Assembly (NCBI GenBank): GCA_016788065.1
Contig: JAEUTI010000016.1
Span: 1 to 64,000, forward strand
Reading direction: 5' to 3'
From: Bacteroidia bacterium
GTDB lineage: Bacteria; Bacteroidota; Bacteroidia; AKYH767-A; OLB10
Length of the DNA stretch: 64,000 nt
The translations under genes were made by a program, and so were the position numbers. The first letter of the stretch is position 1. Every line of letters begins with the position of its first letter. This document shows positions 9,769 to 19,879 of this stretch, piece by piece. The notes below the pieces were generated by a model. The model saw only the letters and a program-made list of their open reading frames with translations, was not told the origin of the DNA and did not search any database.

Positions 9769-12618
9769 TTACTTACTCAGGTACATAGATTTCTCTTTGT
9801 ACAAATGTCTGAAATAAGGATCTTCCAAAGAGTCAATAAACCGAATTGCTTCACCGGTTGATTTCATTTCAGGTCCCAGTTCTTTATTGACATTGGGGAA
9901 CTTATCGAATGAAAAAACAGGTTCTTTTATTGCATAACCGAATTTTCGCGGTTCAATTTTAAAATCGGAAAGCTTATGGGTACCCAACATAACTTTGGTT
10001 GCAATATTGATATATGGCACCAGATGAGCTTTGGCAATAAAAGGAACAGTACGTGATGCTCTTGGATTTGCTTCTATCACATAAACTTTTTCTTTTTTTA
10101 TTGCATACTGAATATTTAGCAATCCACGGATATTTAATGCAAGTGCAATTTTCTGTGCATATTCACGCATCTGATTCAATACATGATCAGAAAGATTGAA
10201 GGGGGGCAACACAGCAAAAGAATCGCCTGAATGAATACCTGCGGGCTCAATGTGTTCCATGAGACCAATGAACTGAATATTTTCGCCATCACAAATAACA
10301 TCTGCTTCTGCTTCTTCTGCTCTGTCGAGGAAGTGATCGATCAACACTCTGTTACCAGGTAGATTTTTAAGCAGTTTAATAACGGCATTTTCCAATTCTT
10401 CATCATTAATTACTATGCTCATACCTTGCCCGCCTAACACATAAGATGGTCTGACCAACACCGGATAACCTACCTGATTGGCAACTACCAGAGCTTCTTC
10501 AGCAGATTCAGCAACGCCATACAAAGGATAAGGAATATCAAGATTTTTCAGCAGATCACTGAATCGTCCGCGGTCTTCAGCGAGATCCATATCTTCAAAA
10601 GAGGTACCAATAATTTTAATCCCTTTTTCATGCAGTCTTTCGGATAACTTCAAAGCTGTTTGGCCACCCAACTGAACAATTACACCTTCAGGTTTTTCGA
10701 ACTCTATTAATTCATAGATATGTTCCCAAAAAACAGGTTCAAAATAAAGTTTGTCGGCAATATCAAAATCGGTTGAAACCGTTTCGGGATTACAATTTAC
10801 CATGATAGCTTCAAAACCTGCTTCTTTGGCAGCAAGCACACCATGTACACAAGCATAATCAAATTCGATCCCCTGCCCTATCCTGTTTGGACCGGAGCCA
10901 AGTACAATGATTTTCTTTTTATCGCTGCGAACCGATTCATTACTGAGCACAGTTTTTCCATCAGCTGCAGTATAACCGTTCTCGAATGTTGAGTAAAAAT
11001 ATGGAGTTTTGGATGGGAATTCAGCTGCGCATGTGTCAACAGTTTTGTAAACCCTGTGAATGCCAAGTTCTTTTCTTCTGGCATATACTTCATCTTCAGT
11101 AACATTACTGAGAACATGAGCTATTTGAGTATCCGAATAACCTTTTTGTTTCAATTCCAGGAAAAAATCGGCCGGTAAATTTTGAAGGTTGTATCTTTTC
11201 AATTCCTGTTCCATGAGCACCAACTGTTGAATCTCATGCAAGAACCACTTATCAATTTTAGTAAGATTAAAAATTGACTGGATTGGAACCCCTAACTTGA
11301 GAGCCTCCTTCACATGAAAAAGACGATCCCACGATGCATGTTCCAGATTATAAACAATATCATCGAGTTTGGTTGACCCTGTTCCATCGGCACCTAAGCC
11401 CGCTTTATTTATTTCAAGTGACTGACATGCTTTCTGGAGTGCTTCAATGAAACTTCTTCCGATTCCCATTGCTTCACCCACAGACTTCATTTGAAGTCCT
11501 AATGTACGATCGGCACCGGGGAATTTATCAAAATTCCAGCGCGGTATTTTTACAATTACATAATCTAGTGTAGGTTCAAAAAAGGCAGAAGTAGAACCGG
11601 TAACCTGATTCTGTAACTCATCCAAATTATAACCAATTGCCATTTTAGCAGCAATTTTAGCAATTGGATAACCGGTAGCTTTGGAAGCAAGCGCAGATGA
11701 TCGGGATACACGGGGATTTATCTCTACTGCAATGATACTTTCATCTTCAGGGTTAACTGCAAACTGCACATTACAACCTCCGGCAAACTCTCCAATAGCA
11801 CGCATCATTTTGATTGCCAGATTTCGCATATGCTGGAACGTTTTATCGCTCAAAGTCATTGCGGGAGCTACAGTGATTGAATCACCTGTATGAATTCCCA
11901 TCGGATCAAAATTCTCGATCGAACAAATAATAATTACGTTGTCTTTGTTGTCACGAAGTAATTCCAACTCATATTCTTTCCATCCGAAAACGGCCTTTTC
12001 GATCAACACCTCATGAATAGGAGAAGCCTGCAATCCACGCATGAGTTTATCTTCAAATTCTTCCTTCTTGAAGACAAAACCTGCACCAGTACCGCCGAGC
12101 GTGTAAGAAGGGCGAATAACCAATGGATATCCAAGGTTTTGTGCAATTTCTTTCCCTTCAAGAAAGGAATTGGCCACTTTGGAAGGGGCAACTCCAACTC
12201 CAATATCAATCATCAACTGACGAAAAGCTTCTCTGTTTTCAGTTGTTTCAATGGCTTCAATATTGACCCCAATAATGCGGACTCCATATTTTTTCCAGAT
12301 TCCCCTCTCATCTGCTTCCTTACACAAATTTAATGCTGTCTGGCCTCCCATTGTTGGAAGTACTGCATCAATTTTTCTTTCTTCCAGAATCTGAATCAAT
12401 GAATCGGTATTCAAGGGCAACAGATAAACATTATCCGCTGTTACCTTGTCGGTCATGATCGTGGCCGGATTGGAATTTATCAGTGATACTTCAATTCCCT
12501 CTTCTTTTAAAGAACGGGCGGCTTGTGAACCGCTGTAATCGAATTCACAGGCTTGTCCAATAATAATTGGACCGCTTCCGATAATTAAAACTGACTTAAT
12601 GGATGAATCTTTCGGCAT
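9769..12618 (-). CDS. carB: Carbamoyl-phosphate synthase large subunit, no MGS domain
   Basis: Makes carbamoyl phosphate from bicarbonate, ammonia (delivered by CarA) and two ATP, for pyrimidine and arginine synthesis. Two ATP-grasp halves are present: the first opens SVLIIGSGPIIIGQACEFDY, the second opens IIVLGSGPNRIGQGIEFDY near residue 580. From the ATG at 12618 the protein is 949 aa, well short of the roughly 1070 aa of E. coli CarB; the missing part is the C-terminal MGS-like allosteric domain (UMP/ornithine binding). I recall similarly short CarB in other Bacteroidota. I reject the upstream TTG at 12711 because the promoter and leader hairpin lie between it and this ATG. carA is not in the window. 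Confidence 0.93.
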   Translation of the reverse strand: MPKDSSIKSVLIIGSGPIIIGQACEFDYSGSQAARSLKEEGIEVSLINSNPATIMTDKVTADNVYLLPLNTDSLIQILEERKIDAVLPTMGGQTALNLCKEADERGIWKKYGVRIIGVNIEAIETTENREAFRQLMIDIGVGVAPSKVANSFLEGKEIAQNLGYPLVIRPSYTLGGTGAGFVFKKEEFEDKLMRGLQASPIHEVLIEKAVFGWKEYELELLRDNKDNVIIICSIENFDPMGIHTGDSITVAPAMTLSDKTFQHMRNLAIKMMRAIGEFAGGCNVQFAVNPEDESIIAVEINPRVSRSSALASKATGYPIAKIAAKMAIGYNLDELQNQVTGSTSAFFEPTLDYVIVKIPRWNFDKFPGADRTLGLQMKSVGEAMGIGRSFIEALQKACQSLEINKAGLGADGTGSTKLDDIVYNLEHASWDRLFHVKEALKLGVPIQSIFNLTKIDKWFLHEIQQLVLMEQELKRYNLQNLPADFFLELKQKGYSDTQIAHVLSNVTEDEVYARRKELGIHRVYKTVDTCAAEFPSKTPYFYSTFENGYTAADGKTVLSNESVRSDKKKIIVLGSGPNRIGQGIEFDYACVHGVLAAKEAGFEAIMVNCNPETVSTDFDIADKLYFEPVFWEHIYELIEFEKPEGVIVQLGGQTALKLSERLHEKGIKIIGTSFEDMDLAEDRGRFSDLLKNLDIPYPLYGVAESAEEALVVANQVGYPVLVRPSYVLGGQGMSIVINDEELENAVIKLLKNLPGNRVLIDHFLDRAEEAEADVICDGENIQFIGLMEHIEPAGIHSGDSFAVLPPFNLSDHVLNQMREYAQKIALALNIRGLLNIQYAIKKEKVYVIEANPRASRTVPFIAKAHLVPYINIATKVMLGTHKLSDFKIEPRKFGYAIKEPVFSFDKFPNVNKELGPEMKSTGEAIRFIDSLEDPYFRHLYKEKSMYLSK

Positions 12619-12643
12619 TGCAAGGTGCTGATTTAAGTGAAAA

Positions 12644-12692
12644 TTCCGGCCTGGGATGGCTGTCTTTCGACCAGGGTCATCCAGCCCCGGAA
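12644..12692 (-). promoter_or_regulatory. Structured carB 5' leader hairpin
   Basis: On the minus strand the leader can fold into one long interrupted hairpin: TTCCGG pairs with CCGGAA (12687-12692 / 12644-12649), CTGGATG pairs with CATCC(C)AG with one bulge, and the tip CTG(G)TC-GAAA-GACAG closes on a GNRA-type GAAA loop. It begins only a few bases after the predicted transcription start and is visibly more GC-rich than its surroundings. No long T-run follows, so it does not look like a simple attenuator terminator. Function (stability, attenuation, ligand sensing) is unknown. Confidence 0.55.
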
Positions 12693-12699
12693 ACGGCTG

Positions 12700-12707
12700 C
12701 AAAGCTA
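12700..12707 (-). promoter_or_regulatory. carB promoter -7 element
   Basis: On the minus strand this reads TAgcTTTG, an exact match to the Bacteroidota -7 consensus TAnnTTTG. It predicts a start near 12696 and a leader of about 78 nt. No clear -33 TTG element is seen at the usual spacing. Confidence 0.5.
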
Positions 12708-12906
12708 CCAATAATAAACCGATTACTTTAATATTGTTAGTAAATAAGCAATAATTACAGATAATTGATAATCAATATATTAAATAATAAAACATTAATC
12801 GATTCAATTTCAGTATCCAACATCGAATGAATGAGAACAGATGTCCTTATTTCGAAAGAAAATGATTGGGTATTGCAATGTCACTTAAAATGCTGATTCT
12901 TAAGGA

Positions 12907-12914
12907 TAGCTTTG
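12907..12914 (+). promoter_or_regulatory. Hydrolase promoter -7 element
   Basis: TAgcTTTG matches the Bacteroidota -7 consensus and is followed by GCAG, like the divergent carB promoter. It lies 22 bases upstream of the TTG start of the hydrolase. Confidence 0.5.
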
Positions 12915-12936
12915 CAGTTACAATACCTTCTGAAAA

Positions 12937-13764
12937 TTGAGTCACTTCAGCATACATTTAACTGATATCCACTGGAACTGCCAAAGGTTTGGAACAGGAC
13001 CAGCATTGCTGATTGCTTTTCATGGTTTTAACCGGACTTCTGATGATTTTCATGCTTTTGAAAAGCATTTAGGCAATTGTTACACTTTGATAGCAGTTGA
13101 TCTGATCTTTCATGGCAAAACACACCTGGCCAACAGTTTTTCGGAAAAAGGCAAGCTGTTTACCAAAGAAAATTTGACAGAATTGATAAACGCCATATTG
13201 CTTAAAGAAAATAAACAGCGTTTTTCTGTGATGGGATACAGCTTTGGTGGAAGGCTTGCTATGAATTGCATTCAGTTATTTCCTGAGAAAGCGGACAGCA
13301 TAATATTAATTGCCTCCGATGCATTAAGATGGAATCCGGGATATTATTTCGCTACAAAAACCTTCTTAGGAAAGTTCATTTTCCGTTTGATGACAAATAA
13401 CCCGGAATTTGTTGTTTCCATTCTTGGTGTTTTAAGTGCAATGAGATTAATACATCCAAAGGCTTATGAATTTTATAAAAGCCAACTATCATTTCAACCT
13501 GTCCGGCACAAAATTTATGAGGTATGGATGGCACACCGAAATATGGTTCCGGATATTTCAATACTGGAGAAAAACATTAATAAGTTCCAAATTCCGGCAC
13601 TCTTTATTTTTGGTGCTTATGATCGTATTATTCCATCAAAAACCGGAAGGAAGCTTATAAGAGGCCTGAATAAAAATGCGCGATTAGTCATCCTTGATGC
13701 AGGACATCGTGTGCTGGAGAAAAGCCAGGAAATCAGTGACGAAATAAGAAAGTGTTTAAAATAA
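12937..13764 (+). CDS. Alpha/beta hydrolase
   Basis: Cytoplasmic serine hydrolase of 275 aa with no signal peptide. The oxyanion-hole region FHGFNRTSDDF is at about 28-38, the nucleophile elbow MGYSFGG puts Ser at about 102, the acid is in FGAYDRIIP and the base His in DAGHRVLEK near the C-terminus, a complete triad in the right order. Substrate is unknown; the fold resembles the esterase/MhpC-like group. Start is TTG at 12937: an in-frame stop lies two codons upstream and no ATG occurs before the nucleophile region. It stands alone, diverging from carB and ending in a strong terminator. Confidence 0.8.
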   Translation: MSHFSIHLTDIHWNCQRFGTGPALLIAFHGFNRTSDDFHAFEKHLGNCYTLIAVDLIFHGKTHLANSFSEKGKLFTKENLTELINAILLKENKQRFSVMGYSFGGRLAMNCIQLFPEKADSIILIASDALRWNPGYYFATKTFLGKFIFRLMTNNPEFVVSILGVLSAMRLIHPKAYEFYKSQLSFQPVRHKIYEVWMAHRNMVPDISILEKNINKFQIPALFIFGAYDRIIPSKTGRKLIRGLNKNARLVILDAGHRVLEKSQEISDEIRKCLK

Positions 13765-15968: not shown

Positions 15969-16133
15969 TTAAGAATTTCTTCTTAATGAATCTTCATCAG
16001 ATACGGTTAGTTTGTGACGACCTTTAGCTCTTCTTGCGGCTAATACACGGCGACCATTGGCACTTGACATTCTTTGACGGAATCCGTGCTTATTTTTTCT
16101 TTTCCTTACGGAAGGCTGATACGTTCTTTGCAT
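15969..16133 (-). CDS. rpmH: 50S ribosomal protein L34
   Basis: Translating the minus strand from the ATG at 16133 gives a 54-aa, very basic protein beginning [18 protein letters not shown] and containing [19 protein letters not shown], the conserved core of L34. Length is normal for the extended Bacteroidota form, which adds a short acidic/basic tail after the core (here [11 protein letters not shown]). It has its own promoter and terminator. It is not followed by rnpA as in many other phyla. Confidence 0.95.
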
Positions 16134-16156
16134 AACAATTCTCTTATACGGGAGTG

Positions 16157-16164
16157 CAAAAATA
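16157..16164 (-). promoter_or_regulatory. rpmH promoter -7 element
   Basis: Minus-strand TAttTTTG matches the Bacteroidota -7 consensus, with a TTTG at 16182-16185 about 17 bp further upstream as a possible -33 box. The predicted leader is about 20 nt. Confidence 0.6.
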
Positions 16165-16221
16165 CTGAAATAATTGAATCACAAAAGGAAATTTACTAAT
16201 TTTATTTAATTGTACTGATAA

Positions 16222-16885: not shown

Positions 16886-17539
16886 TTATAATTTGTGTTC
16901 AGAATTTTTCATAATCTGATATAGAAATTCTCTTGCGCGGAACAGTTGTGCTTTAACCGTTCCTAGAGGCAGTTGCAGTTCATCGGCGATTTCTTCATAA
17001 GAACGTTCCTGAAAATAACGGAGTTCCACTAATTTTTTATAGCGGGGCTTAAGTCTTTCCACAACATCACGCATCATCATCACCTTTTGCTTCTTCATCA
17101 TATTCTCCTCAGGATCGGGCTGATTCGATTTGATATCGATCGTTAATTCACCACCGTCATCTGTTTCAAGACCTTTATCAATAGAGAATGTTTGTTTTCT
17201 CTTCTTCCGAATAAAGTCGATACAATTATTTGTTGCGATTTTGAATAGCCAGGTACTGAAAGCATAATCGGGCGTGTACTGTTTTATATTTTTGAATGCT
17301 TTTCCAAAAGCTTCAATAGTAAGGTCATCGGCATCATCCCGGTTATTTACCATTTTCAACAACATAAAGTAAATTGAATCTTTATAACGTGACATCAGTT
17401 CAGCATAAGCTTTCTGATCACCGCTATCGATGGCATTGCGAACCAACTGATAATCTTTGAGCGCTTTATCGCTCAGATTCGGATTTATCTTTGAAGGAAC
17501 CGATTCGTCACTGGTAGTAGTATCCTGATTTATTTCCAT
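16886..17539 (-). CDS. ECF-type RNA polymerase sigma factor
   Basis: Alternative sigma-70 factor of 217 aa. Region 2 spans about residues 40-110 (YKDSIYFMLLKMV, DDADDLTIEAFGKAF, STWLFKIATNNCIDFIRKK); region 4 spans about 155-210 (LKPRYKKLVELRYFQERSYEEIADELQLPLGTVKAQLFRARE). An acidic linker lies between them, and an N-terminal extension of about 30 residues is unlike the minimal ECF form. No anti-sigma factor gene is adjacent; the upstream gene is a membrane glycosyltransferase overlapping it by 10 bp. Bacteroidota commonly carry such housekeeping-like ECFs, so a general envelope or stress role is only a guess. Confidence 0.9.
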   Translation of the reverse strand: MEINQDTTTSDESVPSKINPNLSDKALKDYQLVRNAIDSGDQKAYAELMSRYKDSIYFMLLKMVNNRDDADDLTIEAFGKAFKNIKQYTPDYAFSTWLFKIATNNCIDFIRKKRKQTFSIDKGLETDDGGELTIDIKSNQPDPEENMMKKQKVMMMRDVVERLKPRYKKLVELRYFQERSYEEIADELQLPLGTVKAQLFRAREFLYQIMKNSEHKL

Positions 17540-18648
17540 GTTTTATCTTTAATCAAAAGGTTGGCGACCGCAAGGGCCGGATATATAAGTACAATCGCAA
17601 GATCGAATATGGGAATCATCCAAATGATATCCATCTCTCCCAGCCTCTTCATACAATTGCCAAAAATAATCAATTGTACGAACAAACGAAGCAACCAGGC
17701 TCCAAGTATGACTTCCCACTGATAACCAGTCACTAAGAGCAAAATTAGTGCTGCATAAAAGACAAACATGGATAAAAAGAACGTCCCAATCATGAATTTA
17801 TGTCCCGGTTTGTACATTTTACCGGTACTCATGTGTCTTTTTTTCTGACTAAACCATCCCGACCAGCTACTTCTGGGTTCAGAAACTGTAAACGAAGACG
17901 GATGTAATTCTACCCTGGTATTTTTTGAAGTAGCCGTTTCATTAACGAACAAATCATCATCACCCGACATTACATGGTTGTGACTAGCAAAGCCTTTATT
18001 TTTAAAAAAGAGTTCTTTTCGGTAAGAAAGATTTCGGCCTACACCCATGTATGGATTTCCGCCCAATGCACTTGATAAATACTGAACGGCATTGAAAACG
18101 GTGTCCATCCGAACCCATTTGTTCAAAAAGCCGGACAGTTTCCGGTAGGCACCATATCCGACAACGATATCAACACCCTGTTCATAACGTGACACCATAT
18201 AGGATATCCATTCGTCTGAAGCAGGCTTGCAATCAGCATCCGTCATCAAGAGATGATCATATTTTGCAGCTTTAATACCCAATGATAAGGCAAATTTTTT
18301 GCCATGACGATATTTCTCCTGCTCATTGATAGTCACCACTTTAAGATGAGGGTATAAAGGCTGTATCTCTTCCAGATAATTGCCACTTTCATCCCAGGAA
18401 CAATCGTTGACCACGATCACTTGAAACTCGGGATATTTCTGATCCAGAACAGATTGCAGATTTTCTTTTAAATTTTTAAGTTCATTTCTGGCACAAATAA
18501 TTACCGAAACCGGTAGTTTTTTTGCAGGTACAGAATTCACCTTGGCAAAAGCCAGTCTGCTAAACCGTATTAAGAAATAATAGAGCTGCACTAAAAGCAT
18601 CACTCCGCCCCCAATAATCCCCCAGGTTTGAATACTATACCAATCCAT
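17530..18648 (-). CDS. Membrane-bound family 2 glycosyltransferase
   Basis: Processive-type GT2 of 372 aa anchored in the inner membrane by one N-terminal helix (about 8-28) and two to three C-terminal helices (about 285-365). The GT-A domain contains VSVIICARNE (about 47), VIVVNDCSWDES, the metal-binding TDADC (about 140), GDDDLF as the acidic catalytic region, and QKKRHMSTG in place of the usual QxxRW motif. The set matches poly-GlcNAc synthase/cellulose synthase-like enzymes, but the sugar is not determinable. It overlaps the downstream sigma-factor gene by 10 bp, which couples their translation. Confidence 0.85.
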   Translation of the reverse strand: MDWYSIQTWGIIGGGVMLLVQLYYFLIRFSRLAFAKVNSVPAKKLPVSVIICARNELKNLKENLQSVLDQKYPEFQVIVVNDCSWDESGNYLEEIQPLYPHLKVVTINEQEKYRHGKKFALSLGIKAAKYDHLLMTDADCKPASDEWISYMVSRYEQGVDIVVGYGAYRKLSGFLNKWVRMDTVFNAVQYLSSALGGNPYMGVGRNLSYRKELFFKNKGFASHNHVMSGDDDLFVNETATSKNTRVELHPSSFTVSEPRSSWSGWFSQKKRHMSTGKMYKPGHKFMIGTFFLSMFVFYAALILLLVTGYQWEVILGAWLLRLFVQLIIFGNCMKRLGEMDIIWMIPIFDLAIVLIYPALAVANLLIKDKTWK

Positions 18649-18671
18649 AATTCACAATTCAGGCAATCACG

Positions 18672-18679
18672 CAAATCTA
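18672..18679 (-). promoter_or_regulatory. GT2-sigma promoter -7 element
   Basis: Minus-strand TAgaTTTG matches the Bacteroidota -7 consensus. It lies 23 bases upstream of the GT2 ATG and 26 bp from the divergent tgt promoter element. Confidence 0.5.
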
Positions 18680-18705
18680 TGAGGATAAGTAAGGGACATT
18701 ATTTC

Positions 18706-18713
18706 TATCTTTG
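18706..18713 (+). promoter_or_regulatory. tgt promoter -7 element
   Basis: TAtcTTTG matches the Bacteroidota -7 consensus and predicts a leader of about 30 nt for tgt. No clear -33 TTG is present at the usual spacing. Confidence 0.5.
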
Positions 18714-18748
18714 ACAAGATATTAACACAAGCAGTTTAATAAACATTT

Positions 18749-19879
18749 ATGAAATTCCGGCTTTTTGCTGAAGACCCTGGAAGTAAGGCCAGAGCGGGCG
18801 AAATTATCACCGATCATGGCACCATTCCCACCCCTATTTTTATGCCTGTTGGAACAGCAGGTTCTGTGAAAAGCGTGCATCAGCGGGAATTAGTCAATGA
18901 TATTGATGCCAAAATTATTTTAGGAAACACCTATCACCTAAATCTGAGACCAGGCACTTCCATTTTGCAACAAGCAGGTGGATTGCACAAATTTATGGGT
19001 TGGGAAAGACCCATATTAACTGATAGTGGAGGATATCAGGTTTATTCACTCGCTGCTAACCGAAAAATAAAAGAGGAAGGTGTTCACTTCAGGTCTCACA
19101 TAGATGGATCGAAACACTTTTTATCGCCGGAAACCTCCATGGAAATTCAGCGGGTAATTGGTGCCGATATCATTATGGCATTTGATGAATGCACACCCTA
19201 TCCGTGTGAACACAGAACCGCTAAAAAGTCGATGGAAATGACCCATCGTTGGTTAACCCGTTGTTGTGAATATGTTGATAACATGTCGCCGCTTTATGGT
19301 CACAGTCAGGCACTTTTCCCGATTGTACAGGGAAGTGTTTACAAAGACCTAAGAGTCCAGTCTGCCGAAGTAATTGCATCCGCAAACCGCGAAGGCAATG
19401 CAATCGGAGGATTATCGGTTGGTGAACCGGCAGAAGACATGTATGAAATGACCGATTTGGTTTGCTCTATTTTGCCGAAAGATAAACCCCGTTATTTAAT
19501 GGGTGTTGGCACTCCTGTTAATTTACTTGAATGCATTGCGCTGGGAATTGATATGTTTGATTGTGTAATGCCAACACGAAATGCAAGAAATGGCATGTTA
19601 TTTACAAGTGAAGGATTTATCAACATAAGAAATGAAAAGTGGAAAGATGATTTCTCTCCGATTGATGCTCAGGGAAATTGTTTTGCTGATACCCAATATT
19701 CCAAAGCTTATCTCAGACATCTTATCATATCAAAAGAGATATTAGGTGCTCAAATTGCAACCTTACATAATCTTTCATTTTATTTGTGGTTAGTAAGAGA
19801 AGCCAGAGTTCGCATCCTTGAAGGTACATTTGCAAGCTGGAAAAATGTAATGGTTAAAAAACTGGCCCAAAGGATATGA
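18749..19879 (+). CDS. tgt: tRNA-guanine transglycosylase (queuosine pathway)
   Basis: Exchanges G34 of GUN-anticodon tRNAs for preQ1. The 376-aa protein has the full TIM-barrel pattern: TDSGGYQVYSL with the base Asp92, MAFDECTPYP, PIVQGSVY, GLSVGEP and the nucleophile Asp271 in DCVMPTRNARNG. The zinc site is odd: where E. coli has CxCxxC before SRAYLxHL, this protein has Gly309, Cys311 and Asp314, with His340 retained in TLHNL, so two of three zinc cysteines are missing. I believe degenerate sites occur in other Bacteroidota Tgt. The stop overlaps the next gene by 4 bp. Confidence 0.93.
   Translation: MKFRLFAEDPGSKARAGEIITDHGTIPTPIFMPVGTAGSVKSVHQRELVNDIDAKIILGNTYHLNLRPGTSILQQAGGLHKFMGWERPILTDSGGYQVYSLAANRKIKEEGVHFRSHIDGSKHFLSPETSMEIQRVIGADIIMAFDECTPYPCEHRTAKKSMEMTHRWLTRCCEYVDNMSPLYGHSQALFPIVQGSVYKDLRVQSAEVIASANREGNAIGGLSVGEPAEDMYEMTDLVCSILPKDKPRYLMGVGTPVNLLECIALGIDMFDCVMPTRNARNGMLFTSEGFINIRNEKWKDDFSPIDAQGNCFADTQYSKAYLRHLIISKEILGAQIATLHNLSFYLWLVREARVRILEGTFASWKNVMVKKLAQRI

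Follow-up and report, generated by a model that had tools for sequence, protein, structure and literature searches.

The locus considered here raises the question of whether a long, GC-rich hairpin lying between a promoter and the carbamoyl-phosphate synthase gene carB takes part in the control of that gene. It is found in a 64,000-nt stretch of DNA from a Bacteroidia bacterium (contig JAEUTI010000016.1, positions 1 to 64,000; "the window" below), and a sequence-only reading had suggested that it might be a cis-regulatory RNA, or a 5' stability element, of the pyrimidine genes of its lineage. The open-licence literature searched yielded no description of the control of carbamoyl phosphate synthesis in Bacteroidota, and nothing on carbamoyl-phosphate synthase riboswitches in Bacteroidetes or on carB start sites and UTP; for reiterative transcription in Bacteroidetes it offered a single paper, whose title concerns reading-frame transitions.

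The identity of the gene and the loss of its allosteric domain, both proposed earlier, are borne out by domain searches: the product matches Pfam CPSase_L_D1, D2 and D3 and NCBIfam NF003671 and TIGR01369, the NCBIfam matches end at 924 of 1058 and 932 of 1052 model positions, and there is no Pfam match to the MGS domain. The missing domain had been offered as a rationale for control at the RNA level. It is indeed absent, but among the carB matches listed for relatives without the hairpin most are frames of 930–1000 amino acids too, so its loss offers no specific explanation for the hairpin. The ATG start codon is at 12618-12616 (minus strand); a start further upstream in frame (TTG 12711) was rejected, there being no in-frame ATG, GTG or TTG from the predicted transcription start to the ATG. 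carA and carB are apart in this genome, on contigs C62 and C31. The gene upstream of carB is a divergently oriented alpha/beta hydrolase, with a promoter string, TAGCTTTGCAG, at window positions 12907-12914 (plus strand) that is the same as that of carB. Two other roles for the hairpin were rejected: the hydrolase has its own TAGCTTTG at that position, past the hairpin on its strand, so that the hairpin is not part of its mRNA; and because the upstream gene is divergent, the hairpin is not a neighbor's terminator.

The earlier description of the layout was confirmed in all its parts: the sequence and coordinates of the hairpin, its nested stems and GAAA loop, the box TAGCTTTG, the roughly 25 nt to the ATG, and a position directly behind a Bacteroidota-type promoter (Table 1). 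In Flavobacterium psychrophilum the sigma-A box occupies -12 to -5 (PMC9723704, in excerpt); the -33/-7 consensus of Bacteroidota promoters was taken from PMC6847099 (also in excerpt). A -33 element (TTTG or TTG) at the customary spacing is not evident by eye in the carB promoter. Placing the end of the box at -5 would put +1 at C12695, or alternatively at G12694, for a transcript beginning GUUUCC; the arrangement is then box-CAGCC-GUUUCC, with G12694 and its TTT 6 nt after the box as the second candidate start. The predicted leader is 77 nt long, and by the box rule the hairpin starts at about its fourth nucleotide (its third if +1 is G12694). The foot is formed by TTCCGG (12692-12687) and CCGGAA (12649-12644), within which CTGGATG/CATCC(C)AG and then CTG(G)TC-GAAA-GACAG nest; 25 nt separate the stem from the ATG. 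An intrinsic-terminator scan did not flag the hairpin and the UUUU behind it, this run falling short of the strong U-run of an intrinsic-terminator attenuator.

Table 1. Features of the carB locus, in window coordinates.
Feature	Position	Strand	Basis
carB, carbamoyl-phosphate synthase large subunit, 949 aa, without C-terminal MGS allosteric domain	9769..12618	-	ORF, Pfam, NCBIfam
CGGAAGCG in carB coding sequence, can pair with CGUUUCCG at predicted mRNA 5' end instead of hairpin foot	12573..12580	-	partition function, longer fragments
Block of 183 nt identical to G001, sole available congener	12569..12751		genome comparison
Upstream ORF of 15 codons (MTLVERQPSQAGIFT) within hairpin region, out of frame with carB	12633..12680	-	sequence
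Four T right behind stem, not called as intrinsic terminator	12640..12643	-	sequence; terminator scan
Predicted 5'-terminal hairpin, GAAA tetraloop, 49 nt	12644..12692	-	folding
Stretch of 46 nt without counterpart in shorter carB leaders of L011, L012, L021; holds hairpin minus 3' foot CCGGAA	12650..12695	-	alignment
Predicted start region CGTTT	12691..12695	-	inferred from box position; cf. E. coli carAB P1 GUUUGC
Putative sigma-A type -7 box TAGCTTTG	12700..12707	-	sequence; box position per PMC9723704, consensus per PMC6847099 (both in excerpt)

The stretch is, as had been noticed, more GC-rich than its flanks: the hairpin core is the GC-richest of 5,421 non-coding 50-mers in the window (0.66, vs. 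0.386 for the window as a whole). The carB leader is also the most stable among 45 upstream regions of 77 nt (-21.3 kcal/mol, the next being -17.9), and of 18,270 56-mers taken from the window at step 7 on both strands, 41 equal the hairpin in stability. This stability is largely a consequence of GC content, since shuffled sequences are often equally stable: the 56-nt hairpin folds at -20.2 kcal/mol (z -1.14), matched by 25 of 200 dinucleotide shuffles, and a 121-nt fragment has no excess stability (z -0.04; 90 of 200 shuffles as stable). Support for structure beyond base composition is weak. The opposite strand folds more stably still (-22.8), so the assignment of the hairpin to the carB strand comes from the promoter, not from folding. 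Folds that extend into the coding sequence predict a re-pairing of the 5' foot with CGGAAGCG (12580-12573); in the cell the hairpin would form first, ahead of the synthesis of CGGAAGCG. The 40 nt surrounding the carB start codon come out about half paired (predicted mean 0.45) in folds of this kind. The first 8 nt of the window leader (from -2, 58-nt cut) are paired less than in shuffles, at 0.36 vs. 0.58.

The hairpin is single-copy in its own genome, where the next best match to a 91-nt query is only 29 bits over 23 nt; a dispersed repeat or mobile element was rejected on this basis and for want of any plasmid match. Of 24 genomes of the family, its own included, it is present in two, the second being the congener G001; DNA search and a single-sequence covariance model agree on this, and three other genomes match briefly in the DNA search, all outside the hairpin. 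A survey of 42 genomes of the order, the 24 among them, finds the same two, in one genus. The covariance model (R1) was also run on 395 genomes of the class, a draw without G001, where its own genome matched at E 2.8e-22. Two weak matches in other genomes, both at E about 0.05, are L136 (G398:C1:684308-684340) and L137 (G052:C11:35932-35980). An element of the pyrimidine genes of the lineage, as the sequence-only reading had it, is not supported by this distribution: the stem was not found in the 22 other family genomes, nor in the 40 other order genomes of which they are part.

The two known copies are identical in sequence. Their genomes agree throughout the 136 nt of promoter plus leader, against a background of differences at 1,373 of 20,076 positions in coding sequence and 188 of 2,107 outside it; fourfold sites differ at 142 of 383 in carB and, with lower divergence, at 12 of 89 on the hydrolase side. 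The aligned stretch has 16 gene starts, of which four, that of carB among them, are change-free over 100 nt upstream, and other long tracts identical to the congener lie nearby (17477-17730, 254 nt; 18569-18777, 209 nt). One further identical block (227 nt, 15985-16211), among the longest such runs, consists of rpmH, recognized by eye as the gene for ribosomal protein L34, and its promoter; the 60-aa ORF listing missed this gene. Given the change-free upstream regions at other genes and the rpmH run, constraint and recombination are indistinguishable for the carB leader.

A possible origin is suggested by the shorter leaders of relatives. In seven family members whose carB is 79–87 percent identical (L011-L016, L021), the box is 25–52 nt before the ATG, and none of these carB leaders has the window hairpin. 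CCGGAA, the 3' foot, is found before the carB start in L011 and L021 as well, without this hairpin. Since 46 nt of the window leader lack a counterpart and CCGGAA is kept in relatives, the hairpin has the appearance of a ~46-nt insertion, or local inverted duplication, in this genus, as judged from four sequences. More widely, of the 101 carB upstream regions 6 carry CCGGAA within their final 130 nt, where 1.0 would be expected; two of the six cases are this genus, and one (L013) sits before its box.

The covariance-model check that had been proposed matched no family. Rfam 15 gave no match in the window at the gathering score; relaxing the threshold to E 10 brought up three matches within 12590-12940, all to eukaryotic families, at chance level (E 1.6-7.9) and off the hairpin. 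The carB loci of five relatives likewise gave no match at the gathering score. The library used presumably includes the PyrR elements and riboswitches. Because there is one hairpin copy in the genome, there is none at its carA or at its pyrR-pyrB. carA has a short leader behind a terminator-like hairpin of the preceding gene. pyrB is preceded by a PyrR-like ORF (L266:2035-2586, minus strand) with the PRPP-type motif VILVDDVLYTG, a probable PyrR also by its position; its leader is short. Of 30 carA loci collected from relatives, 28 could be placed and 17 had a box; of 30 pyrR-pyrB loci, 27 had the upstream ORF and 20 a box, which was no more than 25 nt from the start in 16 of the 20. These pyrR-pyrB leaders are too short for classical attenuation.

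A different signal emerged at the predicted carB starts themselves. Starts were aligned on the promoter box and positions -1 to +7 were scored. The first set consisted of 80 + 57 loci, from which 35 outside Bacteroidota by title (L092-L126) were left out, leaving 102, and then one (L086) too short upstream, leaving 101; 73 of these had a start codon with a box 15–130 nt upstream, reduced to 64 by removal of nine near relatives. Among the carB promoters 22 of 64 have [AG]TTT, as do 13 of 148 controls; where the box is followed by C, the counts are 14 of 52 and 4 of 46. This pattern was noticed before its test, and a fresh set of loci was therefore drawn: 23 new loci, thinned to 14 at one per genus, plus 58 stretches, for a total of 72, 63 of them with a box. 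AATTT is found in 24 of these 63 vs. 4 of 136 controls, and [AG]TTT in 30 vs. 22. Two fresh loci (L304, L306) overlapped the first set and were later removed, leaving AATTT at 24 of 61 vs. 4 of 136; L285 is of the same genus as L024, a first-set locus, and more shared genera are possible. Pooling gives AATTT at -1 to +7 in 34 of 125 carB promoters vs. 7 of 284 controls (Fisher 3e-13). Some of the control boxes could be there by chance, a concern partly addressed by requiring C after the box (19 of 51 carB promoters vs. 2 of 45 controls). In 27 of 127 carB promoters and 9 of 284 controls, the T-run begins at +2. At least one signature case is found in 14 of the 29 families of the fresh set, or about 11 of 29 at one locus per family; predicted carB starts with A(A)UUU include those of L036, L076, L149, L274, L290, L298, and L328. 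By analogy with known systems, such starts suggest UTP-sensitive initiation. One locus, L053, comes from a record titled Glaciecola amylolytica, with a Bacteroidota-like carB (70 percent identity) and a TAAATTTG box; it is possibly mislabelled or transferred.

The U-run is not a general mark of pyrimidine genes, being rare at the other two loci: AATTT is found at 1 of 17 carA starts ([AG]TTT at 3 of 17) and 1 of 20 pyrR-pyrB starts. Within the family of the window, three loci of one genus (L013, L014, L015) have ATTTT at +1, and three other relatives (L011, L012, L021) have no U-run at +1 to +7. The predicted window start is GUUU, near the E. coli carAB P1 arrangement and not the enriched AAUUU form; [AG]TTT is found in 6 of 89 other promoters of its own genome.

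Hairpins also recur at the predicted 5' ends of carB transcripts. A short class was defined by an uninterrupted stem of at least 6 bp with a loop of 3–9, starting -3 to +5 after the box; it is found at 7 of 64 carB promoters vs. 1 of 148 controls in the first set and 6 of 63 vs. 3 of 136 in the fresh set (p 0.03), and, with at least three G-C among the outer six pairs, at 13 of 125 vs. 2 of 284. In these loci the box TAnnTTYG is followed within a few nucleotides by a perfect, terminator-like stem (of CCCGAC..GTCGGG type), mostly with a T-run behind it. Seven of the 13 (L047, L049, L085, L268, L270, L275, L280) are alike in sequence, the rest being L035, L055, L062, L065, L301, and L324; three of the seven are titled Pedobacter or Sphingobacterium, so the seven are not independent of one another. 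These seven rows, picked for having the stem, have two-sided changes at 2 of 8 pairs, a number reached by 36 of 500 shuffles (the covariation score by 5 of 500). In 9 of the 13 loci the nearest upstream ORF has the same direction and ends 111–259 nt before carB, so that some short hairpins could be the terminator of that gene; in four (L047, L035, L062, L065) it is divergent. The window hairpin is unlike these, being longer and interrupted: its 6-bp foot encloses a long interrupted stem, and it falls outside the short class and is not among the 7 of 64. An excess of pairing in the first eight bases of long carB leaders (p 0.003 once) was dropped at p 0.145 in the fresh set. Another genus of the family (g6; L037, L163, L141, L148, L150, L160, and L162, seven species) has a different carB-leader hairpin followed by a T-run. 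Of its 15 pairs, five vary one-sidedly, none has a kept two-sided change, and four are broken or gapped in some rows; homology with the window hairpin is accordingly not claimed.

The idea that control is exerted near the carB RNA start is thus made plausible by a non-random start signature in the class, but the better-supported signal is the class-wide U-run at the first bases and not the window hairpin. For the hairpin itself, our tentative interpretation, held with somewhat less than even confidence, is a genus-specific 5'-terminal element acting on carB mRNA output. The carB mRNA would begin at about 12695/12694, with the 49-nt GC-rich stem-loop starting at its third or fourth nucleotide and followed by UUUU; the stem-loop would have arisen in the genus through an insertion of ~46 nt (or a local inverted duplication) between the promoter and a shorter ancestral leader. 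It could act by guarding the 5' end, or through an effect on early elongation or on termination at the U-tract that directly follows. The hairpin would itself sense no metabolite; any sensing of pyrimidine supply would more likely be at the first transcribed bases, carB starts being enriched in a purine plus a U-run. Stem-loops in 5' UTRs do stabilize some bacterial mRNAs (PMC7509114, in excerpt). Such an element is favored by the promoter box, the hairpin and their spacing, by the most stable leader and GC-richest non-coding patch in the window, by dissimilar 5'-terminal hairpins at other carB genes, by the 3' foot CCGGAA shared with L011 and L021, and by 136 nt of promoter and leader unchanged beside diverged carB fourfold sites (142 of 383). 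Against it, the fold is unexceptional for its composition, only two copies are known and these are identical, the hairpin is outside the perfect-stem class, its 5'-end pairing score is low, its foot prefers a coding-sequence partner, and the start-codon region is about half paired in such folds; leader identity is not unique, and recent recombination would look alike. A GC-rich insertion folding by chance and with no role, its identity in two species due to recent ancestry or recombination, would likewise be confined to one genus and owe similar stability to composition alone, and would fit the other identical tracts nearby (254 and 209 nt) and the less diverged hydrolase side (12 of 89 fourfold sites). 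This is somewhat unlikely in our view, given that no position of the 136 nt differs when 142 of 383 carB fourfold sites do, that the stem closes on a CCGGAA also present in relatives, and that the hairpin is directly behind the promoter.

The start site might also be the regulator, with the hairpin incidental or secondary. By analogy with E. coli, a transcript starting at G12694 with GUUUCC would, at high UTP, slip on its three U to give dead-end GUUUUn products, so that carB would be turned down when pyrimidines are plentiful. The window's box-CAGCC-GUUUCC resembles carAB P1, in which GUUUGC is behind a GC-rich stretch; AATTT is enriched at carB starts (34 of 125 vs. 7 of 284; fresh loci 24 of 61 vs. 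4 of 136), the first T is commonly at +2 (27 of 127 vs. 9 of 284), and ATTTT is at +1 in L013-L015 of the same family. We nevertheless consider this somewhat unlikely for the window, where GUUU is not AAUUU and the G is one base past the box rule; L011, L012 and L021 have no U-run at +1 to +7, [AG]TTT is also in 6 of 89 other promoters of the genome, and the signature marks few carA (AATTT 1 of 17) or pyrR-pyrB (1 of 20) starts. Very improbable is a metabolite riboswitch or PyrR-bound attenuator controlling carB: a PyrR-like ORF does precede pyrB in this genome and an alternative pairing with coding sequence exists, but Rfam has no match on the hairpin at the gathering score or at E up to 10, there is one stem-loop with a GNRA loop and no called terminator, and the hairpin is absent at carA and pyrR-pyrB. 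The element, slippage and neutral-insertion readings are partly compatible, and the start site is, by analogy, probably controlled by nucleotide supply. Class-wide, it is conceivable, if short of probable, that carB, coding for an enzyme without the allosteric domain, is controlled at its first transcribed bases by UTP-sensitive slippage (AAUUU) or in some lineages by a 5'-end hairpin plus U-run, this genus having a GUUU start and an enlarged hairpin.

Control of pyrimidine genes through their leaders is familiar from the Bacillus pyr operons, with their PyrR-dependent attenuators. The idea of leader-level control is shared with these, and a PyrR-like protein is encoded in this genome; unlike them, the window leader has no Rfam match and no called terminator. 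Structured 5' UTRs and leader-peptide attenuators have been reported from F. psychrophilum (PMC9723704, in excerpt), of the same phylum, where as in the window a structured leader is behind a TAnnTTTG promoter; carB is not named in those excerpts. As with the 5' stabilizing stem-loops of the E. coli ompA type, the window stem-loop is a few nucleotides from the predicted 5' end and upstream of the start codon; it differs in being found in a single genus, and in a phylum whose mRNAs are described, in the abstract of PMC6847099, as without Shine-Dalgarno sequences. Taken by itself, the hairpin is a detail of one lineage that can serve as a natural variant.

The nearest parallels are in E. coli, where the pyrBI transcript starts with AAUUUG and initiation is UTP-sensitive by slippage on the U-run. 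The carAB promoter P1, with a GUUUGC start after GC-rich GCCGCC, is also UTP-sensitive by slippage (PMC6245113, in excerpt). carAB is the gene for the same enzyme, the predicted window start likewise has a GC-rich stretch followed by a purine and three or more U, and AAUUU is enriched at predicted carB starts of the class; the window differs in its promoter box, in a start that is predicted, in its large 5'-terminal hairpin, and in having carA and carB apart. With a start-site signature in 14 of 29 fresh-set families, in front of enzymes without the usual feedback domain, this long-known enteric mechanism would become testable in a phylum with a different promoter.
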